DNA from: Azoarcus olearius
GTDB lineage: Bacteria > Pseudomonadota > Gammaproteobacteria > Burkholderiales > Rhodocyclaceae
DNA length: 64,000 bases
Reading direction: 5' to 3'
NCBI RefSeq assembly: GCF_001682385.1
Contig: NZ_CP016210.1
Location: 2,170,001 to 2,234,000, forward strand
In this document: positions 50,658 to 64,000 of the stretch, in pieces
Position numbering within the stretch: the first letter of the stretch is position 1
Layout: every line of letters starts with the position of its first letter
Made by a program: the position numbers and the translations under genes
Notes under the pieces: generated by a model
Told to the model about the DNA's origin: nothing
What the model saw: only the letters and a program-made list of their open reading frames with translations
Database searches by the model: none

Positions 50658-52973
50658 TCACTTCCCCGCCGAATAACTCCGCTTCAGATTCGTCTCATAC
50701 TGCCCGCGGCCCGACAGGTACTGCTTCGGCCAGGCCTGGCCCTTGAACTCGATCTTGGCGGCTTCGTGCAGCGTCCAGGCCGGGTCGGCCAGGTGCGGAC
50801 GGGCCACCGCGCAGAGGTCGGCACGGCCGGCGCCGATGATGCTGTTGACATGGTCGGCTTCGAAGATGGCGCCCACGGCGATGGTCGGGATGCCCACTTC
50901 GTTGCGGATGCGGTCGGCGAACGGGGTCTGGAACATGCGGCCGTACACCGGCTTTTCACCCTTCCACACCTGACCGGACGAGCAGTCGATGATGTCGGCG
51001 CCGGCTTCCTTGAACAGGCGCGCGATGGCGACCGCGTCGTCGGCCGTGTTGCCGCCGGGGAACCAGTCGTGGCACGACAGGCGCACCGACATCGGCTTGT
51101 CGGCCGGCCACACCGCGCGCATCGCCTTGAACACTTCCAGCGGGTAGCGGGCGCGGTTTTCGACGCTGCCGCCGTATTCGTCCTTGCGCTGGTTGGTCAG
51201 CGGCGACAGGAAGCTCGACAGCAGGTAGCCGTGGGCGCAGTGGAATTCCAGGATGTCGAAGCCGGCTTCGGCGGCCATCTTGGTGGAGCGGACGAAGTCT
51301 TCCTTGACGCGGTCCATGTCGGCGCGGTTCATCTCGCGCGGCACCTGGCTGTTCGGCAGGTAGGGCAGCGGCGAGGCGGAGATCAGTTCCCAGGCGCCGG
51401 ATTCCAGCGGTTGGTCGATGCCTTCCCAGGCCAGCTTGGTCGCGCCCTTGCGGCCGGCATGGCCGAGCTGGATGCCCATCTTTGCGTCGGAGTTGGCATG
51501 CACGAAATCGACGATGCGCTTCCAGGCATTGACGTGCTCGGGCTTGTACATGCCGGCGCATCCCGGGGTGATGCGGGCGTCGGCCGAGACGCAGGTCATT
51601 TCGGTATAGAGCAGGCCGGTGCCGCCGAGCGCGCGCGAGCCGAAGTGGACCAGGTGGAAGTCGTTGGCGAGGCCGTCTTCCGCGGAGTACATCGCCATCG
51701 GCGACATGATCACGCGGTTGGCCAGCGTCAGGCCGCGCAGCTTGAACGGGGTGAACATCGGCGGCGGCGGGGTCTGGTCGGCGGCGACGGGCACGCCGGC
51801 CTTGTTGGCCAGCCAGCGCTCGTAGCCTTCCAGCCAGTTGGCGTCGCGCAGGCGCAGGTTTTCGTGCGAGATGCGCTGCGAGCGGGTCAGCATCGAGTAC
51901 ATGAACTGCTCGGGTTCCAGCGTATCGCAGTAGCGCGCGTCGCAGACCTCGAACCATTCCATCGCGTTCCACGCGGCGTTCTGCAGGCGCAGCACGTCGA
52001 TGTTGCGCACTTCCTGGTAGCGCGCGAGCACGGCGGGGATGTTGTCGGCGCTGTCGCCCTCTTCCTTGAACAGGCGGGTCAGGTCGATCGCGTCTTCCAG
52101 CGCCAGCTTGGTGCCGGAGCCGATGGCGAAGTGGGCGGTGTGTACCGCGTCGCCCATCAGCACGACGTGGCTCTTGCCGTTGAAGTGGTGCCACTGTTCG
52201 CACTTGACGCGCTGGAAGTTGAGCCAGGCCGAGCCGCGCAGGTGACGGGCGTTGGTCATCAGCGGGTAGCCGTCCAGGTGGTCCTTGAACAGCTTTTCGC
52301 AGAATTCGATGGACTGCTGCTGGTCGGCCTTGTCGAGGCCGTGGGCCTGCCAGACGTGTTCCGGGCACTCGACGATGAAGGTCGTCGTGGTGTCGTCGAA
52401 CTTGTAGATGTGGGCCTGGAACCAGCCGTGTTCGGTCTTCTCGAAAATGAAGTTGAAGGCGTCGAACAGCTTGTTGGTGCCCAGCCAGATGTAGCGGTTC
52501 GGGCGGGTGACGATGTCCGGCTTGAAGACTTCGTTGTAGCGGTTGCGGATCTTGGAGTTGATGCCGTCGGAGGCGATGATCAGGTCGGCGTCCGGGTATT
52601 CCAGGTCGGAATCGACGTCCTTCTCGAACACCAGTTCCACGCCCAGCTCCACGCAGCGGTCCTGCAGGATGTTGAGCATCTTCTTGCGGCCGATGCCGAC
52701 GAAGCCGTGGCCGCCGGAGCGGATGGTGCGGCCCTTGAAGTGCAGCTCGATGTCGTCCCAGTGGTTGAAGGCGACCTGGATCGCGTCGGCGGTGACCGGG
52801 TCCCATTCGCGCATGTTGTCCATGGTCGCGTCGGAGAACACCACGCCCCAACCGAAGGTGTCGTAGGGCTTGTTGCGCTCGACCACGGTGATCTGATGCG
52901 CCGGGTTCAGCTTCTTCATCAGGATCGCGAAATACAGCCCCGCGGGGCCCCCACCGATACACACGATGCGCAT
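50658..52973 (-). CDS. abmA: 2-aminobenzoyl-CoA monooxygenase/reductase (fused FAD monooxygenase and OYE domain)
   Basis: This 771-residue protein joins two flavoprotein domains. Residues 1 to about 390 form a group A FAD monooxygenase ([15 protein letters not shown] at the start, [26 protein letters not shown]). The rest is an old-yellow-enzyme reductase ([42 protein letters not shown]). In Azoarcus evansii an enzyme of this architecture both hydroxylates and reduces 2-aminobenzoyl-CoA to a non-aromatic enamine ketone. The start at 52973 follows AAGGAG. Salicylyl-CoA 5-hydroxylases share the architecture, but RidA in the operon and an indole-type oxygenase nearby favour an amino substrate. 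Confidence 0.82.
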
Positions 52974-53024
52974 GCTGTTCTCCTTTAGTTGTTGCCGCCC
53001 TGAGGTCCGGCGGACGTGAAAGTG

Positions 53025-53043
53025 TTCCTCATTTAGCGAGGAA
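53025..53043. promoter_or_regulatory. inverted repeat overlapping the abmA promoter, candidate MarR operator
   Basis: TTCCTC, 7 bases, GAGGAA form a perfect 6-bp inverted repeat. It touches the predicted -10 box of abmA and covers the likely transcription start, where bound MarR protein would block transcription. Confidence 0.55.
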
Positions 53044-53070
53044 TATTTCATGTCTAAACTATTAAGTCAA
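53042..53070 (-). promoter_or_regulatory. predicted sigma-70 promoter of abmA
   Basis: On the minus strand TTGACT (53070-53065) and AATATT (53047-53042) are 17 bases apart, in an unusually AT-rich patch of the GC-rich window. It lies about 70 bp before the abmA ATG. Confidence 0.6.
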
Positions 53071-53829: not shown

Positions 53830-54837
53830 TTGAACGCGCCTGACGCCGGGCTGGCGGAGCCGCTGGCCGCCTATCCCTTCTTCCGCTCCAGCGATGCGGA
53901 GGAGTCGCGCCAGCACGTCGCCCGCGTATTCTGCCCGCACGAACTTCGCCAAGTCACGGGCAGGCGGCCGTTCGCCTCGCGCCACAACATGCTGCGGCTG
54001 CACGAGACGGCGCTGAACTTCCTGACCTACGGCACCGACGTCGACATCCTTCCCGGCCGCCTCGAAAGCTTCTATCTGGTCCAGATGCCGCTGGCGGGCG
54101 GCGCCGATATCCGCTGCGGCGAGCAGGCGGTGCTGTCCTCGCCGCGGCTCGCCACCATCCTCAGCCCGGACGATGAAACGCGGATGCGCTGGCAGCACGA
54201 TGCGCGCCAGCTGCTGCTGTGGATTCCGCGCGAGGCCCTGGAGCGGCGGCTGGAAGAGCATCTGGGCGAACGCCCGGACCGCCCGCTCTCCTTCCACCTC
54301 GGCCTGCCGCAGGACGAAGGGCTGACCCGCAGCTGGTGCCGCATGCTCGCTGACCTTGCGGCCAACATCGACCAGTGCGGGGCCGACTGGCTCCGCTTCC
54401 GCCCCACCGTCGCCGCCCTGGAGGATTGTCTGTTGCGCGGATTACTGCAGCTTCACCAGCACAACTACAGCGACTGCCTGAACGCACCGCGCGACACCGG
54501 CAAGCCGCGCCACGTCCAGCGCGCGATGGACTACGTGCAGGCGCACATCGAAGAGGGCATCAGCGTGGGCGACATCGCACGCGCCGCCTGTGTCAGCGTG
54601 CGGGCGCTCGAAGAAGGCTTCCGCAAGTATTGCGACACCACGCCGCTCGCCTATCTGCGCGAACTGCGGCTGGAGCGCGCGCGCAAGGCCCTGCTGGCCC
54701 TGCCCGGCCGCAGCGAATCGGTGACCGACGTCGCGCATCGCTACGGCTTCGTCCATCTCGGGCGCTTCTCCGCGTATTACAAGGCGCGCTTCGGCGAAAC
54801 GCCCTCGCAGACGGTCGGTCGCGCGCGGCGCTGCTGA
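53830..54837 (+). CDS. AraC-family regulator, XylS/BenR-like
   Basis: This protein of about 335 residues has an N-terminal AraC-binding-like domain (HNMLRLHETALNFLTYGTDVDI, LESFYLVQMPLAGGADI). Two helix-turn-helix units lie at about 240-330, with ISVGDIARAACVSVRALEEGFRKY and VTDVAHRYGFVHLGRFSAYYKARFGE. Such proteins activate aromatic catabolic genes. The reading frame has no ATG before residue ~54; the best start is TTG at 53830, so either the start is unusual or a frameshift hides an ATG at 53781. It lies 122 bp upstream of the SDR-monooxygenase operon and is probably its activator. Confidence 0.88.
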   Translation: MNAPDAGLAEPLAAYPFFRSSDAEESRQHVARVFCPHELRQVTGRRPFASRHNMLRLHETALNFLTYGTDVDILPGRLESFYLVQMPLAGGADIRCGEQAVLSSPRLATILSPDDETRMRWQHDARQLLLWIPREALERRLEEHLGERPDRPLSFHLGLPQDEGLTRSWCRMLADLAANIDQCGADWLRFRPTVAALEDCLLRGLLQLHQHNYSDCLNAPRDTGKPRHVQRAMDYVQAHIEEGISVGDIARAACVSVRALEEGFRKYCDTTPLAYLRELRLERARKALLALPGRSESVTDVAHRYGFVHLGRFSAYYKARFGETPSQTVGRARRC

Positions 54838-54858
54838 TCCCTGTCGGACAGCGCATAA

Positions 54859-54887
54859 CGGATAGGTCCAGAACGGATTCCGGATAG
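54859..54887 (+). promoter_or_regulatory. direct repeats for an AraC/XylS-type activator, SDR operon
   Basis: CGGATAG occurs at 54859-54865 and 54881-54887, exactly 22 bp apart, with CGGATTC directly before the second copy. The repeat points toward the SDR gene and its last base is 72 bp before the ATG. It matches the GGNTA half of XylS-type sites. Confidence 0.6.
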
Positions 54888-54959
54888 CCCGTCACCGGGC
54901 TGAAATGAAAACTGTGCTCCATCGACGCCGCTGCGCGTCACCTCAACGGAGCACAGCAG

Positions 54960-55748
54960 ATGAAGGGCCTGGACAACAAAGTCGCCATCGTCACCGGTGG
55001 CGCAACCATGATCGGCGAGGCGGTCGCGCGTGACCTGATCGCCCACGGCGGCCGCGTGGTGCTGGCGGACATCGACGCCGACAAGGGCGCCGCCGCGGCG
55101 GACAGGCTGGGCGCCGCCGCCCGCTTCATCCGCACCGACGTCACCGACGATGCCGCGATCGCCGCCTGCGTGGCCGGCACCGTGGCGGCCTTCGGCGGCG
55201 TCGACTTCCTCGTCAATTGCGCCTGCACCTACGTCGATAACGGCGCCGCCTCCACGCGCGCCGAATGGCTGCAGGCCTTCAACGTGAATGTGGCCGGCGC
55301 GGCGATGATGCTGCAGACCTGCCGGCCGGAGATGGTCAAGCGCGGCGGCGGCGCGGTGGTGAACTTCGCCTCCATCTCTGCCACCTCCGCCCAGGCCGGC
55401 CGCTGGCTCTACCCGATGAGCAAGGCCGCGATCCAGCAATTCACCCGCAGCGCCGCGCTCGACCTCGCCGCCGACCACATCCGTGTCAACTCGGTGTCGC
55501 CCGGCTGGACGTGGTCGTCGATCATCGAAACGCTCTCCGGCGGCGACAAGGCCAAGGCCGACAAGGTCGCGGCCGACTACCACATCCTCGGCCGCCTCGG
55601 CCTGCCCGAGGAAGTCGCCCAGGTCGTCTCCTTCCTGCTCTCCGACCACGCCAGCTTCGTCAGCGGCGCCGACTACGCCTGCGACGGCGGCTACACCGCG
55701 CTCGGGCCGGAAGGCAGCGCAGCCGCGATCACCCGGCTGATGGCCTGA
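54960..55748 (+). CDS. short-chain dehydrogenase/reductase beside an indole-type oxygenase
   Basis: This 262-residue SDR keeps the catalytic YPMSK pair and the active-site serine region (NFASISATSAQAG). The cofactor motif is unusual: TGGATMIG has methionine where the second glycine of TGxxxGxG should be, and the NNAG motif is replaced by NCACTY. Indole-degradation clusters contain an SDR that oxidises indole-2,3-dihydrodiol, and this gene has the right position for that role. It is the first gene of the operon SDR - monooxygenase - flavin reductase. Confidence 0.85.
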   Translation: MKGLDNKVAIVTGGATMIGEAVARDLIAHGGRVVLADIDADKGAAAADRLGAAARFIRTDVTDDAAIAACVAGTVAAFGGVDFLVNCACTYVDNGAASTRAEWLQAFNVNVAGAAMMLQTCRPEMVKRGGGAVVNFASISATSAQAGRWLYPMSKAAIQQFTRSAALDLAADHIRVNSVSPGWTWSSIIETLSGGDKAKADKVAADYHILGRLGLPEEVAQVVSFLLSDHASFVSGADYACDGGYTALGPEGSAAAITRLMA

Positions 55749-55800
55749 CCTCCCCTTTCCTCCCCCTTCAGCAAGCATCCGCACCCATCAGGAGACTTCC

Positions 55801-57099
55801 ATGCACCTCGCCAGCAATGCGTCCGAAAACAAGATCACCCCGCGCAGCGTTGCCATCGTCGGCGCCGGCCAGGCCGGCCTGCTGCTCGGCTGCGCCCTGC
55901 TCGACAAGGGCTACAGCGTCACCATGGTCACCAACCGCAGCGCCGAAGATGTCTGGCACGGCAAGGTGATGTCCTCGCAGTTCATCTTCGACCCGGCGCT
56001 GCAGATCGAGCGCGACTTCGGCATGAACCAGTGGGAAGCCGAGTGCATGAAGACCGAGGGCATCAGTTTCTCGATTCCGATGCCGGACGGCAGCGGCAAC
56101 AAGGCCATCCACTGGCATGCGCGTCTCAACGCCTACGGGCAGTCGGTCGACCAGCGCGTGAAGATGCCGGGCTGGATGAAGGAATTCGAGCGCCGCGGCG
56201 GCGAACTGCGCTTCGACGACGTCGGCGTGGCCGAGCTGGACCAGCTTGCCGCCGAGTACGAACTGGTGCTGCTGGCCGGCGGCAAGGGCGAGATCGTCAA
56301 ACTGCTCGGCACCGACGAGAGCCGTTCGCCGGTCAAGCAGCCGATGCGCCAGCTCGCGCTCACCTACGTCACCGGGATGAAGCGCCACGACTACTACGAG
56401 TGCGTGAACTTCAACCTCATCCCCGGCGTGGGCGAGTACTTCGTGTTCCCGGCGCTGACCACCAAGGGCGCCGACGGCACCCAGGACTGCGACATCATGG
56501 TGTTCGAAGGCGTGCCCGGCGGCCCGATGGACTGCTGGGGCGAGGCCAAGACCCCGGAGCAGCACCTCGAGGTCAGCCTCAACATCCTCAAAACCTTCGT
56601 GCCCTGGGAATACGAGCGCAGCCGCGACTGCCAGCTGACCGACGCCAACGGCATCCTCGCCGGCCGCATCACGCCGACCGTGCGCAACCCGGTGCTGACC
56701 CTGCCCTCCGGCCGCAAGGTGTTCGGCATGGGCGACGCCGTGCTGGTGAACGACCCGATCACCGGTCAGGGCTCCAACAACGCGACCAAGGGCGCCAAGC
56801 ACTACTACGACGCCATCCTCGCCCGCGGCGCCGCCGCCTTCGACGAAGCCTGGATGCGCCAGACCTTCGACGCGCTCTACAACGGCTACGCGGAAAAGGT
56901 GGTGCGCTGGACCAACAGCCTGCTGTTCCCGCCGCCCGAGCACATCGTCAAGCTGCTGGGCGCCGCGCAACAGGCCCCCTCGCTGGCCAGCCGCATCGCC
57001 AACGGATTCAACGATCCGCGCGACTACGCCGAGTACTGGTTCGACGCCGCCGATGCGGAAAACCTGATCGCCAGCGAGATGCAGAAGCTCGCCGCCTGA
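55801..57099 (+). CDS. StyA/IifC-like flavoprotein monooxygenase (group E, styrene/indole type)
   Basis: This 432-residue FADH2-dependent epoxidase-type monooxygenase has the FAD motif VAIVGAGQAGLLLGCALL at the N-terminus and the group E stretch GDAVLVNDPITGQGSNNATKGAKHY. It lacks an NAD(P)H site of its own and would need the reductase encoded just downstream. Relatives oxidise styrene to the epoxide or indole to an oxide/dihydrodiol. No styrene-oxide isomerase or phenylacetaldehyde dehydrogenase is near, while an anthranilate-type CoA pathway lies next door, so indole is the likelier substrate. AGGAGA precedes the ATG. Confidence 0.88.
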   Translation: MHLASNASENKITPRSVAIVGAGQAGLLLGCALLDKGYSVTMVTNRSAEDVWHGKVMSSQFIFDPALQIERDFGMNQWEAECMKTEGISFSIPMPDGSGNKAIHWHARLNAYGQSVDQRVKMPGWMKEFERRGGELRFDDVGVAELDQLAAEYELVLLAGGKGEIVKLLGTDESRSPVKQPMRQLALTYVTGMKRHDYYECVNFNLIPGVGEYFVFPALTTKGADGTQDCDIMVFEGVPGGPMDCWGEAKTPEQHLEVSLNILKTFVPWEYERSRDCQLTDANGILAGRITPTVRNPVLTLPSGRKVFGMGDAVLVNDPITGQGSNNATKGAKHYYDAILARGAAAFDEAWMRQTFDALYNGYAEKVVRWTNSLLFPPPEHIVKLLGAAQQAPSLASRIANGFNDPRDYAEYWFDAADAENLIASEMQKLAA

Positions 57100-57140
57100 G
57101 CGTTCCCGCGTCGTCGTCTGCAAGAAAGAAGGATCGGTAT

Positions 57141-57175
57141 CGCCGGGCCGTGGGGAGCACCTTCCCGGCCCGGCG
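57141..57175 (+). other. intercistronic hairpin between monooxygenase and flavin reductase
   Basis: CGCCGGGCC (57141-57149) pairs with GGCCCGGCG (57167-57175), and GGGGA / TTCCC extends the stem inside, leaving a GCACC loop. There is no T-run. It may protect the upstream mRNA or reduce expression of the reductase relative to the oxygenase. Confidence 0.5.
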
Positions 57176-57190
57176 GCCAAGGAGACAACC

Positions 57191-57676
57191 ATGTTCGACC
57201 CCCGACAGTTCCGCAACGCGCTGGGGCATTTCGCCACCGGCGTCGCCATCGTCACCACCAAAGACAGCCAGGGCGGCGCGATCGGCCTCACCATCAACAG
57301 CTTCGCCTCGGTGTCGCTGGAACCGCCGCTGGTGCTGTGGAGCCTCGCCCGCAACGCGTGGAGCGTGGCTGCCTTCGAAGCCGCCGAATTCTTCGCGATC
57401 CACGTGCTGGCCGAGGACCAGCAAGATCTCTCGAACCGCTTCGCGCGCGCCTCGGAAGACAAGTTCGCCAACGTCAAGACCAGCGCCGGGCTGGGTGGGG
57501 TGCCGCTGCTGACGGGATGCCCCGCGGTGTTCCAGTGCAGTACCGAACGCCATTACGACGGCGGCGACCACATCATCATAGTGGGACGGGTCGAGAGCTT
57601 CCACACCGAGGAACGGCCGCCGCTGCTGTTTCACCGGGGGCGCTATCTGGCGACGCCGGAGGGCTGCGCGGCGTGA
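57191..57676 (+). CDS. flavin reductase (partner of the StyA-like monooxygenase)
   Basis: This 161-residue flavin reductase-like protein has the family stretch FRNALGHFATGVAIVTTKD, then GLTINSFASVSLEPPLVLWSL and FAIHVLAEDQQDLSNRFA. It reduces FAD or FMN with NAD(P)H and hands the free reduced flavin to the monooxygenase. It follows the monooxygenase gene by 91 bp and has AGGAGA five bases before its ATG. Confidence 0.92.
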   Translation: MFDPRQFRNALGHFATGVAIVTTKDSQGGAIGLTINSFASVSLEPPLVLWSLARNAWSVAAFEAAEFFAIHVLAEDQQDLSNRFARASEDKFANVKTSAGLGGVPLLTGCPAVFQCSTERHYDGGDHIIIVGRVESFHTEERPPLLFHRGRYLATPEGCAA

Positions 57677-58028
57677 GGTGCTTCGCAACCCTCGTTTTCA
57701 GGCGGGTTTGACTGGAATTGCGGTGAAGACAGAAGTGCGGTGGCCGGATGGCTCGATTCAGGACGTAAGGCCCCGGCTGGGACGGGATGGGGTTTGCGCT
57801 GCGGTGAGCCCCACCCCATCCCCCTCCTAACCGGTGGTCTCGGCTTCGCCTCGCCGCTCTGCAGGCGTCGAGCAGTGCTCGCCGAAACCCCTGCTCCGCC
57901 CCCCTTGAAGGGGGAGGAACTTGAATCTCCGGGCCGGTAGTCTCGGCTCCGACTTGCCGCTCCGCAGGTGGCAGGCAGTGCCGCCAAACCCCGGTACGCC
58001 CCCCTTGGAGGGGGAGGAACAAGACCCT
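57677..58028. other. 352-bp spacer made largely of repeat A material
   Basis: No gene is supported between the convergent flavin reductase and YedI-type genes. The right 250 bp consist of a repeat A fragment and two tandem related units, described separately. The left 100 bp show no clear structure. Confidence 0.6.
57776..58022. repeat. repeat A-related fragment followed by a tandem duplication
   Basis: A half of repeat A (GGGATGGGGT ... ACCCCATCCCCCTCCTAACC, 57783-57832) is followed by two direct units of about 88 bp, 57831-57920 and 57934-58020. Both units begin CCGGT-GTCTCGGCT and end CCCCCCTTG-AGGGGGAGGAAC; the inner parts have diverged. Confidence 0.7.
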
Positions 58029-58985
58029 CTAAGCCCTCGCCCTCACCGACCGCAGCGCCTTACCCACCGCCGTAACCCCCGCCAGCACCAGCGCTCCGGC
58101 AATCACTCCCGCCACGCCATCCAGCACCGTGGGCGCCACTGCCTCCAGCACCGGCCCGATCGCGGGCACTCCGCCTACCGCGTGCGCCGCTCCATGTATC
58201 ACGTCATGTGCGCCCGGAATGCCGTGGGTAAGGATGCCGCCGCCGACCAGGAACATCGCCGCGGTGCCGAGTACCGACAGGCTTTTCATCAGCCACGGCG
58301 CGGCGGCGAGGATGCCGCGGCCGGTGGCGCGCTGGAGGCGGGGAAGCCCGCCCTCGCCCGCCTTGCGGCTGAGGTACAGCCCGCCGTCGTCGAGTTTGAC
58401 GATGCCGGCGACGAAGCCATACACGCCGACCGTCATGAGCAGCGCAATCGTCGTCAGCACCGCCACCTGGGTGCCGAGCGGTGCGTCGGCCACGGTGCCG
58501 AGGGTGATCGCGATGATCTCGGCCGAGAGGATGAAGTCCGTGCGCACCGCGCCCTGGATCTTGTCCTTCTCGAAAGCCTTCATATCGACCGCCGGGTCTG
58601 CCACTGCCTGCGCCAGTTCGGCGTGATGCGCCGCATCCTCCGCGTGGGCGTGGAGGAATCTGTGGGCGAGCTTCTCGAAGCCCTCGAAGCACAGGAAGGC
58701 GCCGCCCACCATCAGCAGCGGCGTTACCAGCCAGGGCACGAAGGCGCTGATGGCCAGCGCCGCCGGCACCAGGATGGCCTTGTTCTTCAGCGAACCGAGC
58801 GCGACCGCCCAGACCACGGGCAACTCGCGGTCGGCATTGACGCCGGTGACCTGCTGGGCGTTGAGCGCGAGGTCATCGCCGAGCACGCCGGCGGTTTTCT
58901 TCGCCGCCACCTTGCTCATCACCGACACGTCGTCGAGCACGCTCGCGATGTCGTCGATCAGCGCGAGCAGGCTGGTGCCGGCCAT
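58029..58985 (-). CDS. DUF808 / YedI-family inner membrane protein
   Basis: This 318-residue membrane protein begins with [38 protein letters not shown], the well-conserved DUF808 start (NB: written here only to show family identity up to the first helix). It has about five hydrophobic segments between residues 70 and 310. The family (E. coli YedI) has no established function. It stands apart from the catabolic genes in strand and role. GGAG lies before the ATG. Confidence 0.9.
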
Positions 58986-59124
58986 CAGCGTTCTCCAGCC
59001 ATGCTCGGACGGCGGGCGGGCGTGGGAATCGGCTGGGTCATGGCGGTGTCCTGCGGGCGTTGGGGGCGCCCACGGTACGACGTGCGCCTGACACCGTCAA
59101 TCGACGCGCCGCCGCACGGGGCGG

Positions 59125-60702
59125 CTATGGGGCGTAATCGCTCCAGTTCGCCACCAGGTGCGCAGCGGTGCGGTGTGCCAGTGCCGACGCGGTGAAGGTG
59201 GGATTGACCGCACCGCCGCTGGGGAACAGCCCGGGGCCGGCGATGAACACGTTGGCCAGCTCGTGACAGCGGCCCCAGCCATCGGCAACCGAAGTTGCGG
59301 GGTCGCTGCCCATGCGGGTGCCGCCGATCAGATGCATGCTCGCCATCGGGCCATGCCAGGCCTCGCGCGCGCCGGCGCTGTTGAAGATCGCCACGCCCTC
59401 CTTCATCGCATGGGCGTACAGCCGCAGCGCGTTGTCGTCGAAGCGATGGACCACGCGCATCTTCGCCATGCCGGCGCCGTCGGTGCCCGGTGCAAGTTCG
59501 ACGCGGTTCTCGGCCAGCGGCAGGGTTTCGCCCACCGCCGTCATCGAGGCGAAGCGCGTGGCGGCCTGGCCCATGAAGCTGTTGAAAGCGCTGCCGTGCA
59601 GGTCGGGCCGGCTGCAGGCGATGCCGAGCAGGTCGTTGGGCTTGGTCGAGTGCGCAATCAGCCACTGGTAGCCGCCGATGAAGTCCTTGCCCTCGCGCTT
59701 CGCCTTGCCGTAACCGTCCTGGCAGACGAGCTGCCCGCCGCTGACGCCCAGGTGGCAGTCGGTGGCTTCGTCGAACAGGCCGAAGACGCCCCCGGCTGCG
59801 TGCGTGTGCAGGTAGCGGCCGACGGTGCCGGACGCGTTGGCCAGCCCCTGCGGATGGCGGTCGGTGGCGGAGGCCAGCAGCAGGCGCGGCGTCTCCAGCG
59901 CAAAGGCGGCAAGCACCACCAGCGCAGCGGGCTGGAACACCCGCTCGCCGTCGGGCCGGGCCACGATCACGCCGATGCTGCGCGTGCCTGCGGCGTCGGT
60001 GACGATGCGCTCGACGCGGTGGCGGTAGTTCAGCTTCGCGCCGGCGGCCTGCGCCCACTTCAGATACGTCACCAGCGGGTTCGCGAGCGCGCCGGTGGGA
60101 CAGCCCGCGTCGCACCAGCCGTCGTAGATGCAGGCCTCGCGGCCGCGATAAGGCGCGGTGGCGATTGCCAGCGGCAGCGGCGCGACGTGCAGGCCGTGGC
60201 GCTCGAAACCGCGCGCGAGGATTTCGCCCTGACGGAAGCGCGGCACCGGCGGTAGCGGATACTCCGCGCCGGGCGGGCGCCAGCGTTCCGCCGCGGCGTC
60301 ACCGGCGATGCCCACCTCCTCCTGCACCGCGTCGTAGTGCGGACGCAGCGTGTCGTAACCGAACGGCCAGTCGGCGGCCACGCCGTGGCGGCGCTGCATC
60401 TCGAAATCCTCCGGATGCAGGCGGAACCAGCACGCGTAATGGTGGGCGGCGGTGCCGCCGGCGCCCTGCCCCGTGTTGAACGTGATGCCCAGCGGATGAT
60501 CGCCGGCGCTGGCCGCGAGATCCGGCGTGCCTTTCAGCCGGCGCGCCCAGATCTGCGAACTCACGAGCGCTTCGGTGCCGCGTGCGGCGCCGGCTTCGAA
60601 CACCGTCACCTGCTTTCCGGCGGCGGCGAGCTTGGCGGCGACGAGGCTGCCGGCCTGGCCGGCGCCAACGACGACGACTTCGGTTGCGTCCAGCGTCCTC
60701 AT
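59125..60702 (-). CDS. GMC-family FAD oxidoreductase (gluconate/choline dehydrogenase-like large subunit)
   Basis: This 525-residue flavoprotein oxidises an alcohol or sugar. The FAD motif is VVVGAGQAGSLVAAKLAAAG. The C-terminal part has HLIGGTRMGSDP with the likely catalytic histidine, and GGAVNPTFTASAL with the partner asparagine, as in gluconate 2-dehydrogenase large subunits. A Cys-rich stretch (CIYDGWCDAGCPTG) is typical of this subgroup. The ATG at 60702 overlaps the small-subunit stop (ATGA). The protein lacks its own signal peptide, so it would be carried to the periplasm with the Tat-exported small subunit. Confidence 0.88.
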   Translation of the reverse strand: MRTLDATEVVVVGAGQAGSLVAAKLAAAGKQVTVFEAGAARGTEALVSSQIWARRLKGTPDLAASAGDHPLGITFNTGQGAGGTAAHHYACWFRLHPEDFEMQRRHGVAADWPFGYDTLRPHYDAVQEEVGIAGDAAAERWRPPGAEYPLPPVPRFRQGEILARGFERHGLHVAPLPLAIATAPYRGREACIYDGWCDAGCPTGALANPLVTYLKWAQAAGAKLNYRHRVERIVTDAAGTRSIGVIVARPDGERVFQPAALVVLAAFALETPRLLLASATDRHPQGLANASGTVGRYLHTHAAGGVFGLFDEATDCHLGVSGGQLVCQDGYGKAKREGKDFIGGYQWLIAHSTKPNDLLGIACSRPDLHGSAFNSFMGQAATRFASMTAVGETLPLAENRVELAPGTDGAGMAKMRVVHRFDDNALRLYAHAMKEGVAIFNSAGAREAWHGPMASMHLIGGTRMGSDPATSVADGWGRCHELANVFIAGPGLFPSGGAVNPTFTASALAHRTAAHLVANWSDYAP

Positions 60703-61301
60703 CCGCGCAGCCTCCCCGTCGCCGCAGTTTCGCCCGGCCAGCGCGCGGGCGGTTCCACATGGGCGCGGTAGTCCAGGCCCAGCCGTTCGATGCCGGGGCG
60801 GGTGCCGAACACGAGGTCGGCGGCATCGGCCTTGGTCACGAAATAGAACAGTCCGGCCGGCGGACCGGCCCATCCCTCCGCCTGCCCGCTGGCAACCGCA
60901 TCGACGAGGCTGCGACGCGCGTCGGCATCCAGCGCCGAGAAGCCGCGGCCGTGACGGCGCCGGGCAAGCGCATCCACCGCGGCCAGGCCGTCGCGGTAGA
61001 ACGCGGCGTGGCCGGCGGGCCAATCCATGTAGCGCAGGAAAAGGGTGTTCTCATGTCGTGGCAGCGCGAGCTGCGCGGCCAGGTATTCGGCGGCGCCGGC
61101 TGCGGCAGCGCCCGGCACCAGGGCCTCGGCCCACGCCCGCCAGCGCGCCAGCGTCGGGCGGTCCAGGGTGGCGGCGTCTGCCGCGCGGGCCGCGGCTGGC
61201 CCGGCAAGGGCGGCGAGCGCCGCGCCGGCGCCCGCCTTCAGCACGCCGCGGCGGGTGACCTTCGGCGGGGCTCCCGCGCTGTCGGGAGGGTCTTGCTTCA
61301 T
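60699..61301 (-). CDS. gluconate 2-dehydrogenase subunit 3-like protein, Tat-exported
   Basis: This 200-residue protein has a twin-arginine signal (TRRGVLKAGAGAALAAL, about residues 14-30) and a helical Gluc_2-dh3-type domain. In characterised dehydrogenases this small subunit takes the FAD subunit across the membrane and a cytochrome c subunit accepts the electrons. No cytochrome gene is next to this pair, so the electron acceptor is unknown. GGAGG precedes the ATG. It heads a two-gene operon and has an AraC/XylS-type site upstream. Confidence 0.82.
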   Translation of the reverse strand: MKQDPPDSAGAPPKVTRRGVLKAGAGAALAALAGPAAARAADAATLDRPTLARWRAWAEALVPGAAAAGAAEYLAAQLALPRHENTLFLRYMDWPAGHAAFYRDGLAAVDALARRRHGRGFSALDADARRSLVDAVASGQAEGWAGPPAGLFYFVTKADAADLVFGTRPGIERLGLDYRAHVEPPARWPGETAATGRLRG

Positions 61302-61392
61302 CGGAATGTCCTCCGGGCGGTGAAAGGGTCGGGCCGCCGCGCAGCCACAGGCGGCGGGCGATCCGAAGCTAGCGGGCCGGCGGGCGAAGGGC

Positions 61393-61427
61393 TATCCGGC
61401 AACTGCAGTGCTTGTCCGGAAACGGCA
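61393..61427 (-). promoter_or_regulatory. AraC/XylS-type direct repeats upstream of the GMC operon
   Basis: The minus strand reads TGCC-N6-GGACA (61427-61413) and TGCA-N6-GGATA (61407-61393), 20 bp apart, pointing at the small-subunit gene; the nearer site is about 90 bp from the ATG. The second half-site matches the XylS consensus TGCA-N6-GGNTA fully. Confidence 0.6.
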
Positions 61428-61511
61428 CGCAGGTGCCGGCGCCCGCCGGGTGCGGGCTGCGTCACGGTGATGGTGGCGCTGCTCGGCGTTTCGGCCGGCG
61501 CGCGGCCGCGC

Positions 61512-62030
61512 TCATGGCGCCGCTTCCGGGTGCAGGCGGGCGAAGGCGCCGTCGCGGTAGAGCAGCGGCATCGCGTCGGGCGCGGTGCGTAGTTCGACCA
61601 CATCGGCGATCACGATCGCGTGGGTGGCGGATTCGTGCATCTCCACCACACGGCAATCGAAGCTCGTCAGCGCGTCGGCCAGCAGGGGCGCGCCGGTGCG
61701 GGCGGTCTCCCAGCGCCCTTCGGCAAAGCGCGCCTCGCCGCTGCAACGGCTGGAGCCGAAGCGCATGCACAGCGCGCCCTGCCCTTCGGCCAGCATGTTG
61801 ACCGCGAGCACGCCGCTCGCACGCAGCAGCGGAAAGGCGCTGGCGGCGGTGTTGATGCAAACGAGCAGCCGCGGCGGTTGGGTGCTGACAGAACACAGCG
61901 ACGACACGGTGAGTCCGCCGCGCACGCCGTCGTGCGCGGTGGTGACCACGGCGGTCGGCAGCGCCAGCCGCCGCATGCCGCGCCTGAAGGCTTCCGCCGA
62001 CAGCGGCGCTTCCAGCACCGCGCTGCTCAT
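61512..62030 (-). CDS. flavin reductase (partner of the RutA-like monooxygenase)
   Basis: This 172-residue protein of the flavin reductase-like family has FRRGMRRLALPTAVVTTAHDG, GLTVSSLCSVSTQPPRLLVCIN and VLAVNMLAEGQGALCMRF. It is similar in size to RutF. Its ATG at 62030 overlaps the stop of the monooxygenase gene (ATGA), so the two are coupled and probably work together. A longer frame upstream overlaps the monooxygenase gene and was not used. Confidence 0.9.
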   Translation of the reverse strand: MSSAVLEAPLSAEAFRRGMRRLALPTAVVTTAHDGVRGGLTVSSLCSVSTQPPRLLVCINTAASAFPLLRASGVLAVNMLAEGQGALCMRFGSSRCSGEARFAEGRWETARTGAPLLADALTSFDCRVVEMHESATHAIVIADVVELRTAPDAMPLLYRDGAFARLHPEAAP

Positions 62031-63157
62031 GGCGCCACCTTGAAGGCCTTGCGCAGTCCGCGGGCTTCCAGGATGGGCAGCACGGTGTCGCGGAAGTACG
62101 GGAATTCCTCGGCGTAATCGACGAAGGACAGCGTCGAACCGGCGAAGCCCGCCTCGTGCAGGGCGCAGATGCCGTCGGCCACCTGCTGCGGATCGCCCAC
62201 CAGCGGATAGCCGCCGTGGCCGCCGGAGAAGCGGTCGCGGATCAGCTTGAGCTGGTCCTTCGGGAAGGACTCGGCGTGGGCGAACATCAGCCGGATGATG
62301 TTGTCGACCGCCGCCCAGTCGGCGTGCTGCTGCGAGTAGTAGTGGTGGTAGTCCTCGGCTTCCTTCTGCGTCGGCCGGCACACGACGTAGGAGAAGGTCA
62401 GCACGTCGATGGCACGGCCCTTGGCGGCGGCCATGGCCTTGATCTCGGCGATCTCCGCCCTGGAGCGCGCCAGGTCGATCGCCGAGGTGAACAGGAAGTC
62501 GGCGTTGCGGGTGGCGAAGTCGCGGCCCTGGGCAGAGCCGGCGGCGTTGAAGATGGGCACGCGGTCCACCACCGGATGCGGCTGGCCGTAGGCGCCCTTC
62601 AGCTTGAAGTACTCGCCGTCCCAGTCGAAGGGCGCGCTCTCGTACCACAGCTTCTCGATGATGTCGTACCACTCCTGCCCCATGCGGTAGCGGGTGTCGT
62701 GGTCGTCTGGCAGGGTCTGCCCCATCGCGTCGTATTCCGGCTTGTTCCAGCCGCAGACGATGTTGAGGCCGGCGCGACCCTTGCCGATCTGGTCGATGGT
62801 GGCGATCTGCTTGGCGACCACCACCGGGTGGTTGCAGGCGGTGTGGATGGTGGCGAACACGTTGATGTGCCGGGTGTGCGCCAGCAGGCCGGCGGCCCAG
62901 GTCATCGTCTCCAGCACGTTGCCGTGGAAATCGGTGGCGCCGCCGTAGCCGATCCAGCGCGCGATCGGCAGCATGAACTCGATGCCCGCGGCGTCGGCGA
63001 GCTTTGCCAGCCGCAGGTTGTTGTCCCAGGTGTTCTGCCAGCGCTCGGGCACCTGGGTGACCGACATGCCGCCGGAGCAGTTGGCGGCGAAGAAGCCGAG
63101 CTTGAACTTGTTGTCGTTGCGTACCGGCGGCACGAAGCCGCTGCTGCGTTCGCTCAT
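62027..63157 (-). CDS. RutA-like luciferase-family flavin monooxygenase
   Basis: This 376-residue protein is a bacterial luciferase-like (LLM) oxygenase. The stretches FMLPIARWIGYGGATDFHG, ATIDQIGKGRAGLNIVCGWNKPEYDAMG and MGQEWYDIIEKLW resemble RutA, which opens uracil by oxidative cleavage of a ring amide bond using reduced flavin. No other rut genes (B, C, D, E, G) are here, so the substrate is different. Lying in an aromatic/indole-type region, a lactam such as an oxindole or isatin is a possible substrate, but this is inference. AAGGA precedes the ATG. Confidence 0.85.
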   Translation of the reverse strand: MSERSSGFVPPVRNDNKFKLGFFAANCSGGMSVTQVPERWQNTWDNNLRLAKLADAAGIEFMLPIARWIGYGGATDFHGNVLETMTWAAGLLAHTRHINVFATIHTACNHPVVVAKQIATIDQIGKGRAGLNIVCGWNKPEYDAMGQTLPDDHDTRYRMGQEWYDIIEKLWYESAPFDWDGEYFKLKGAYGQPHPVVDRVPIFNAAGSAQGRDFATRNADFLFTSAIDLARSRAEIAEIKAMAAAKGRAIDVLTFSYVVCRPTQKEAEDYHHYYSQQHADWAAVDNIIRLMFAHAESFPKDQLKLIRDRFSGGHGGYPLVGDPQQVADGICALHEAGFAGSTLSFVDYAEEFPYFRDTVLPILEARGLRKAFKVAP

Positions 63158-63240
63158 GTTCGTGTCCTTGTCATCTGTCTGTTGGGGGCCGGCTCTTGGC
63201 GGCCGGTGTGCCCAATCTAGTGACGCGGTACGTGGCGAAC

Positions 63241-63275
63241 TATCCCGAAACTCTGGCGCCTATCCGGATGTTGCA
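63241..63275 (-). promoter_or_regulatory. AraC/XylS-type direct repeats upstream of the RutA-like gene
   Basis: The minus strand reads TGCA-N6-GGATA (63275-63261) and CAGA-N6-GGATA (63255-63241), 20 bp apart, pointing at the monooxygenase gene. The nearer one is about 84 bp from the ATG. The sites lie just after the stop of the AraC gene. Confidence 0.65.
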
Positions 63276-63292: not shown

Positions 63293-64000
63293 TCAGCGGC
63301 CGAGCGTGGACGAGGGGCTTTCGCCGAAGCAGCGTTTGTAGTCCACCGCGAAGTGGCCGAGGTGCGAGAAACCCCAGCGCATCGCCACGTCGGTCACGGT
63401 GGTGGTGTCGGGGGCGCTGCGCAGCAGTTCCTGATGGACGCGCTGCATCCGCACGTCCTTCAGGTACTGCATCGGCGTGGTGTCGCGGTACTTGCGGAAG
63501 CCGGCGAACAGCGAGCGGGTGCTGACGCCCGCGTGTTCGGCGAGTTCGCCGATGGTGAGCGGCTCGTGGGCCTTGTCCTCGATGTAGCGCTCGGTGCGGC
63601 GGATGAAGTGCGGCGCGATCGACGGGCCATCCTGCGCGAGGCGTTCGGAGTAGTTGTGCGGCTGGCACATCAGGAGCGTGGTGATCACCATCTGTTCCAC
63701 CTGCGCGGAGAACAGCGGCGAATCGAGCACCGCTTCGCCCTGCGGGTTCTCGTGGCCGATTTCCTCGCACAGCCACTTCATCAGCCGCACCCAGGATTGG
63801 CAGCGGGTGCTGCCCAGGGCCATCTCCGGCAGGAACTCCACCGGCTCGCGCAGCGTGCCGCCCAGGTGCTGGCGGCAGTGACGTTCCAGCGTTTCGCGGT
63901 CGATGCGGATGAAGAGTTTGTCGGTGTCGGCCCCGTGGCGAATGCTGACCGCCTGCGTGGGGCTGACCACCGAGGCCACGTCGGTATTGGAATTGACCGT
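63293..64000 (-). CDS. AraC-family regulator, N-terminus beyond window
   Basis: The last 235 residues of an AraC/XylS-type activator are visible; the frame stays open through the right edge. It has the end of the N-terminal effector domain and two helix-turn-helix units, with LTIGELAEHAGVSTRSLFAGFRKYRD and VTDVAMRWGFSHLGHFAVDYKRCFGE. It resembles the regulator at 53830. It lies 135 bp upstream of the RutA-like gene on the same strand, with a matching direct-repeat site between them, and probably activates that operon. Confidence 0.85.
   Translation of the reverse strand, partial: TVNSNTDVASVVSPTQAVSIRHGADTDKLFIRIDRETLERHCRQHLGGTLREPVEFLPEMALGSTRCQSWVRLMKWLCEEIGHENPQGEAVLDSPLFSAQVEQMVITTLLMCQPHNYSERLAQDGPSIAPHFIRRTERYIEDKAHEPLTIGELAEHAGVSTRSLFAGFRKYRDTTPMQYLKDVRMQRVHQELLRSAPDTTTVTDVAMRWGFSHLGHFAVDYKRCFGESPSSTLGR

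Follow-up and report, generated by a model that had tools for sequence, protein, structure and literature searches.

Paired direct repeats upstream of three operons

We analysed a 64,000-nucleotide stretch of the 4.45-Mb Azoarcus olearius genome (contig NZ_CP016210.1, positions 2,170,001 to 2,234,000; G000:C1:2170001-2234000), which we refer to as the window. Three of its operons, led by genes for a short-chain dehydrogenase/reductase (SDR), a gluconate-2-dehydrogenase subunit-3-like protein and a luciferase-like (LLM) monooxygenase, are preceded by pairs of same-orientation repeats, and two AraC/XylS-family regulators are encoded alongside. The repeats are probably operators of AraC/XylS-family activators, in two versions that would switch on one island of genes for indole compounds. 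Each half-site would consist of box A (TGC...) and box B (GGAYA). We label the sites in the window A to C and those beyond it, given in genome coordinates, D to F; G and L numbers are our handles for genomes and loci. The features of the window are as follows.

54850..54886, plus strand: operator A (version 1), half-sites AGCGCATAACGGATA and AACGGATTCCGGATA, period 22; candidate -10 AAAACT at 54908-54913
61393..61427, minus strand: operator B (version 2), TGCCGTTTCCGGACA-N5-TGCAGTTGCCGGATA, period 20; candidate -10 TAGCTT at 61371-61366
63241..63275, minus strand: operator C (version 2, proximal box A degenerate), TGCAACATCCGGATA-N5-CAGAGTTTCGGGATA, period 20; candidate -10 TAGATT at 63219-63214
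53830..54837, plus strand: AraC1, AraC/XylS-family regulator with PF14525 and PF12833, presumed reader of operator A
63293..64000, minus strand, on to window-equivalent 64309: AraC2, AraC/XylS-family regulator of 338 aa with PF14525 and PF12833, presumed reader of version 2
54960..55748, plus strand: SDR oxidoreductase, whose gene leads the operator A operon
55801..57099, plus strand: indole/styrene-type flavoprotein monooxygenase
57191..57676, plus strand: flavin reductase
60699..61301, minus strand: gluconate-2-dehydrogenase subunit-3-like protein, whose gene leads the operator B operon
59125..60702, minus strand: GMC oxidoreductase
62027..63157, minus strand: LLM monooxygenase, closer to SfnG than to RutA, whose gene leads the operator C operon
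61512..62030, minus strand: flavin-reductase-like partner of the LLM monooxygenase, with weak similarity to the IifD-type reductase

A sequence-only reading had described GGATA pairs, 20-22 bp apart, that point toward these operons 70-95 bp before the start codons, and we found its positions, orientation and distances to be correct. At operator A, GGATA stands at 54860-54864 and 54882-54886 on the plus strand, 73 bp upstream of the SDR ATG at 54960. On the minus strand, operator B has GGATA at 61397-61393 and GGACA at 61417-61413, 91 bp upstream of the ATG at 61301, and operator C has GGATA at 63265-63261 and 63245-63241, 83 bp upstream of the LLM ATG at 63157. The spacing of the pairs was thus read correctly, but GGATA makes up five of the six half-sites and not all of them. 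As had been said, two sites carry TGCA-N6-GGATA, namely B in its proximal half and C in its distal half; A is without it. The two regulators bear out their family assignment by their domains, with the second extending past the window end. The name 'RutA-like' given to the third operon was imprecise, since the LLM enzyme scores best as SfnG, though under the SfnG family cut-off; a second comparison gave the same ranking.

Definition and rarity of the motif

The paired half-sites are real and beyond chance, but the motif as first written is loose. GGATA-N14-17-GGATA has 7 matches in the genome against 4 for the reversed control, and we discarded it as a test motif; 4 of the 7 lie within 49 kb, 1.1% of the genome length (binomial 5e-7; the region was picked after seeing the matches). 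Half-site counts taken alone are suggestive, not decisive: TGCA-N6-GGATA yields 17 matches against 2 in the control and TGCR-N6-GGATA 39 against 16, with 8 of the 39 inside 42 kb, where 0.37 are expected. A better unit is a pair of 15-bp repeats TGC-N7-GGAYA with period 20, that is TGC-N7-GGAYA-N5-TGC-N7-GGAYA. Its exact form occurs 3 times in the genome (B, D and E), all inside 9.1 kb, and the reversed form not once, so that the genome-wide count proposed by the earlier reading turns out weak for its own motif and clear for the full pair. The edge is lost when the pattern is loosened to ≤2 mismatches (13 matches against 6). Operator C fits the full unit except for the degenerate box A in its proximal half. 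In a comparison set of 395 family genomes from 68 genera, the exact pair was observed 42 times, in 25 genomes, and the reversed pattern never.

It is extremely improbable that GC-rich intergenic DNA yielded these repeats by chance. The loose pair, barely above its control, and the full pair with mismatches are what such an origin could lean on; against it stand the clustering, the 42 exact family matches with none reversed, and, as described below, conservation between diverged flanks, a -10 element at fixed distance and the joint occurrence with a regulator clade.

Sites beyond the window and in relatives

Three further sites were found outside the window.

Genome 2234460-2234494: site D, before a molybdoenzyme gene, exact pair, period 20
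Genome 2240430-2240464: site E, before a Ycf48-like/RND operon, exact pair, period 20
Genome 2273510-2273545: site F, strong, period 21, preceding the isatin hydrolase gene that lies ~40 kb past the window

We compared the regions upstream of orthologues for B to E, with this genome included in the counts and several relatives' start codons approximate. The pair is kept while the flanks diverge in 4/4 regions for C and likewise in 4/4 for D. For operator A, two GGA[CT] half-sites spaced by 21-22 bp, with the consensus YGCGC-N5-GGAYA, are present in all of 9 relatives, a version seen too in G026, G086, G130 and G067. Among the nine, L027 is one and the same contig as G115, going by its length and coordinates.

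The surroundings of exact sites were read in 28 loci of relatives (L185-L212). There, the sites precede genes for Ycf48-RND, the molybdoenzyme, GMC, an MmoC/BenC-type reductase and MobB (G115, G026). The site in G286 precedes a homologue (72%) of iifA from an Acinetobacter baumannii locus, and for the gene that follows the site in G032 none of the query proteins gave a match. In L194 and L211 (G115, G026), the MobB gene lies between AraC2 and the molybdoenzyme gene with an exact operator of its own, which suggests that the enzyme and its molybdenum-cofactor supply (guanylation) are co-regulated. MobB of G115 is PF03205 (E 9.3e-46), and the G026 gene is called MobB by similarity only. Upstream of the Ycf48-RND operon in L192, L193 and L212 (G067, G150, G179) we observe three tandem half-sites, 20 bp apart.

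Promoter layout and matrix scores

We scanned 36 of the 42 family matches (34 distinct) for a -10 element at offsets of 10-33 bp after the proximal GGAYA. TAnnnT begins 21 bp past it in 21/34 sites and 22 bp past it in 6/34 (together 27/34), and at no other scanned offset. The Pm promoter of pWW0, upstream of an aromatic-ring dioxygenase gene and served by the AraC/XylS regulator XylS, reads TGCAAGAAGCGGATA-N6-TGCAAAAAATGGCTA-N21-TAGGCT: two 15-bp direct repeats TGCA-N6-GGNTA beside the -35, with the -10 following the proximal GGNTA at 21 bp (PMC5481539).

A version-2 matrix was trained on 26 sites, none from this genome, with 400 kb of other DNA of this genome as background. It scores E at 43.3, B at 40.0, D at 36.6, C at 35.2 and F at 31.2 against a background maximum of 12.2; B, D and E necessarily fit the training pattern and the training set includes orthologues of C, which leaves F and A as the fairer tests. 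One duplicated sequence scored 12.3 twice. At genome 2257698-2257732 and 2273411-2273445 (L044) there are identical promoter-like stretches with one good and one degenerate half-site and TAGCAT 21 bp on, both leading into one duplicated sequence that appears to be a two-copy aldehyde dehydrogenase gene (named by eye). A second indole/styrene-type monooxygenase gene (L044:2352-3581, genome 2258352-2259581) adjoins two further AraC-type genes. A place before it, at genome 2259662, scores 16.1, above A, and was not counted as it is without GGAYA in both halves; its TGCA..GCACG/GCATA repeat pair may be a third operator version.

Two regulator clades and two probable operator versions

The region from 2.2238 to 2.2618 Mb contains five AraC1-like genes, three of them within 28 kb past the window end, and a sixth, weaker match lies elsewhere. 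AraC3 also has PF14525 and PF12833. In a tree, AraC2, AraC3 and AraC5 form one clade and AraC1 and its orthologues another, with support of 100/99 for each; AraC1 is 35-39% identical to AraC2/3/5, and all five are 24-26% identical to XylS. The two clades agree in the second helix-turn-helix motif and differ in the first (RALEEGF versus RSLFAGF in this genome). In XylS, recognition of box A falls to the first motif and that of box B to the second. A common second and a differing first motif match the common box B and the different box A of the two operator versions. Across the family, an AraC3 match of ≥53% identity was found in 23/395 genomes, 21 of which have an exact site, compared with 4 among the other 372.

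The earlier reading had suggested one regulon linking all three enzyme sets. The GMC and LLM operons do share version 2, B and C being alike, but the SDR-monooxygenase operon has a distinct version (YGCGC..GGAYA, period 21-22, other box A) and a regulator of another clade, so one operator type is not shared by A, B and C. A single regulator, or interchangeable paralogues, acting on A to F alike is thus an unlikely arrangement. It would account for the common box B and -10 distance of A to F and for the neighbouring gene sets in G026, G115 and G067, and it draws on G086 and G130, which have the GMC site and an AraC1-type regulator and in which an AraC3 match at E≤1e-70 was not found. The sites of these two genomes are near-identical and hardly make two separate cases; cross-recognition by their AraC1-type regulator is possible. 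However, the differing box A and period of operator A are conserved as such, the regulators belong to separate clades whose first recognition helices differ, and across the family version 2 goes together with the AraC2/3/5 clade. It is likelier that one indole island comprises two linked sub-regulons. The sites beyond the window support a version 2 regulon that would also cover the molybdoenzyme, Ycf48-RND and probably isatin-hydrolase genes.

Proposed mechanism

Reading A to F as AraC/XylS-type operators is well supported at the sequence level: the sites are conserved, have the same -10 distance as Pm and co-occur with a regulator clade. The repeats are tandem and in the same orientation, exact in B, D and E, with period 21 in F, one degenerate box A in C and the variant with period 22 in A; the -10 distance is fixed, and the genes of AraC1, AraC2 and AraC3 are nearby. 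We propose that a regulator dimer with bound inducer, probably indole or its product, would occupy the two tandem 15-bp half-sites. The proximal one would abut the -35, and the regulator would recruit RNA polymerase to a poor -10 of the TAGNTT type 21 bp on, as XylS does at Pm. AraC1 would read version 1 (period 21-22) and drive the SDR-monooxygenase-reductase operon for iif-like indole oxidation. The AraC2/AraC3/AraC5 clade would read version 2 (TGC..GGAYA, period 20-21) before the GMC, LLM, molybdoenzyme, Ycf48-RND and probably isatin hydrolase genes.

We infer activation from the promoter layout and from IifR. In A. baumannii, IifR is required for indole-induced IifC (PMC4577076), and the layout, with a poor -10 at fixed distance, equals that of Pm, where XylS activates. 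Both argue against repressor operators at which the regulator keeps the promoters shut in the absence of indole, a role that we regard as very unlikely. It has its precedent in WhpR, a related AraC-family regulator of indole genes that represses most operons of its island (PMC12538310).

That precedent and several of our own observations weigh against activator operators in two versions. Conservation in relatives, which the earlier reading had named as a check, is complete for A and C but not for B, which is kept in only 4/7 orthologous regions (missing in G115, G067 and G083); E is kept in 5/7 (missing in G106 and G114). An F-type pair (period 21, ending GGATT) is present in 3/10 relatives' isatin-hydrolase upstream regions (G115, G130, G086), and the search used found none in the other 7. 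Operator A has a poor conserved -10 (nAnACT) and scores 13.1 with the version-2 matrix, barely over the background maximum. The 53% identity line was drawn after seeing the list, and with all AraC3 matches at E≤1e-70 the association falls to 21/40 genomes with a site versus 4/355. In G203 and G183 an AraC2/3/5-clade regulator is present but no exact site (G183 has a match with one mismatch), and G032, G086, G130 and G286 have an exact site without such a regulator. Finally, the exact sites occur in 7/68 genera, and related genomes are not independent.

Relation to known systems

The sites differ from Pm in period, which is 21 at Pm, 20 at B to E and 22 at A, and in a box A that is not strictly TGCA. 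The window regulators are also distant from XylS, at the identities given above, and Pm is induced by aromatic acids whereas indole compounds are the presumed inducers here. CphR of Rhodococcus sp. YH-5B is served by TGCA-N6-GGNTA repeats that span -35 to -49 and -55 to -69, with period 20, and are required for full promoter activity (PMC6205950); this system differs in being actinobacterial and in controlling a chlorophenol monooxygenase operon. The Pben promoter of Pseudomonas fluorescens (BenR) differs in serving a benzoate dioxygenase operon, and the role of its repeats was left for testing in that paper.

Related pairs, all of period 20, were found at indole-monooxygenase operons in 4/6 plasmid-collection loci (Alloyangia, Burkholderia, Paraburkholderia and A. 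baumannii). The Alloyangia pair is TGCGCAATCCGGATC-N5-TGCGCAATCAGGATA, that of the A. baumannii iif-type locus is CGCAGAGATTGGATA-N5-TGCAGCTTTTGGACA, and that of Paraburkholderia is followed at 26 bp by an open frame of iifA-like appearance. In A. baumannii, a pair ending AAAAAAATTCGGATA was dropped for the overlapping pair 20 bp upstream. The A. baumannii record (NZ_CP104448.1, L214), 4.09 Mb long, is probably a mislabelled chromosome in the plasmid collection. We found no pair at the Variovorax locus and, by eye only, an imperfect one in Azospirillum. At 21 bp past the pairs stand AATACT (Burkholderia, Paraburkholderia) and GAAGAT (A. baumannii), and in Alloyangia no -10-like hexamer.

Our literature search, which mostly did not extend to subscription journals, found no published operator for IifR-type indole regulators, and a search on IndR likewise yielded nothing usable. 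We found no binding motif in the available passages of the 2025 WhpR paper (Pseudomonas savastanoi), which still calls for gel-shift work on WhpR (PMC12538310). The operator type is thus already known, and its link to indole regulators appears to be new.

The apparent indole island and a possible route

The operator A operon resembles the iif operon of Acinetobacter. It combines iifB-, iifC- and iifD-like genes (SDR, indole flavoprotein monooxygenase and flavin reductase) with an adjoining AraC/XylS regulator of the same two domains, and its products are 56%, 61% and 48% identical to those of the A. baumannii iif-type locus, with 33% for the regulator (local alignment). The closest relatives of the monooxygenase gene (82-86% identity) are in Azoarcus, Parazoarcus, Cognatazoarcus and another Zoogloeaceae. 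PDB 9lrq_A, named as an alanine-phosphoribitol ligase, matches this monooxygenase (E 3e-163), and the entry name may be a slip. Unlike the iif operon, this genome lacks a homologue of iifA (cofactor-independent oxygenase) at E≤1e-20, as do six relatives, and the isatin-hydrolase gene carries a site instead. Partial iifA matches were observed in G130 (37%) and G203 (34%) and a good one in G286.

Beyond the window, the isatin hydrolase gene (L013:1633-2409) is followed by one for an IOR-alpha-type thiamine enzyme (L233:1819-4191; together genome 2273652-2277191). The hydrolase matches PDB 5nmp (E 1.8e-119); the thiamine-dependent protein (PF02775) has E 2.9e-84 but is under the family cut-off. 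The pair is also found in L021, L023, L026 and G086. Inside the island there is an indoleacetamide hydrolase-type amidase above its family cut-off (L018:2600-4057, genome 2248600-2250057). One further gene of the window bears on the pathway.

50658..53051, minus strand: salicylyl-CoA 5-hydroxylase-type fusion, likely anthraniloyl-CoA monooxygenase/reductase, above the family cut-off

This gene is close to AraC1, past a MarR-type gene, and stands beside the AraC1 operon in 6/9 relatives and near the Alloyangia operon; the matrix scan found no operator before it. Its neighbourhood suggests a pathway ending at anthraniloyl-CoA.

We consider it possible, though rather doubtful, that sister AraC/XylS regulators with slightly diverged box-A recognition run layered sub-regulons whose operators mark an undescribed indole route. 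In such a route, the AraC1 operon would oxidise indole, and 3-hydroxyindolin-2-one would be converted to isatin, perhaps via the GMC dehydrogenase. Isatin hydrolase would then give isatinate, the neighbouring thiamine-dependent IOR-type oxidoreductase would turn this 2-oxo acid directly into anthraniloyl-CoA, and the CoA-monooxygenase pathway of the window would finish the degradation. The presence of the hydrolase, the IOR-type enzyme and the CoA-monooxygenase suggests this passage from isatin to anthraniloyl-CoA; our literature search found nothing on the step from isatinate to anthraniloyl-CoA. If true, the route would bypass free anthranilate and replace iifA.

Implications

A 2018 review lists the regulation of the iif indole genes as an open question (PMC6221969). 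The sites described here offer base-level predictions for regulators of the IifR/WhpR type, and sister regulators with slightly differing half-sites provide a natural test of how AraC/XylS specificity changes. The sites also flag genes that are possibly involved in indole breakdown, namely those for the isatin hydrolase, the IOR-type enzyme, and the GMC and LLM enzymes.

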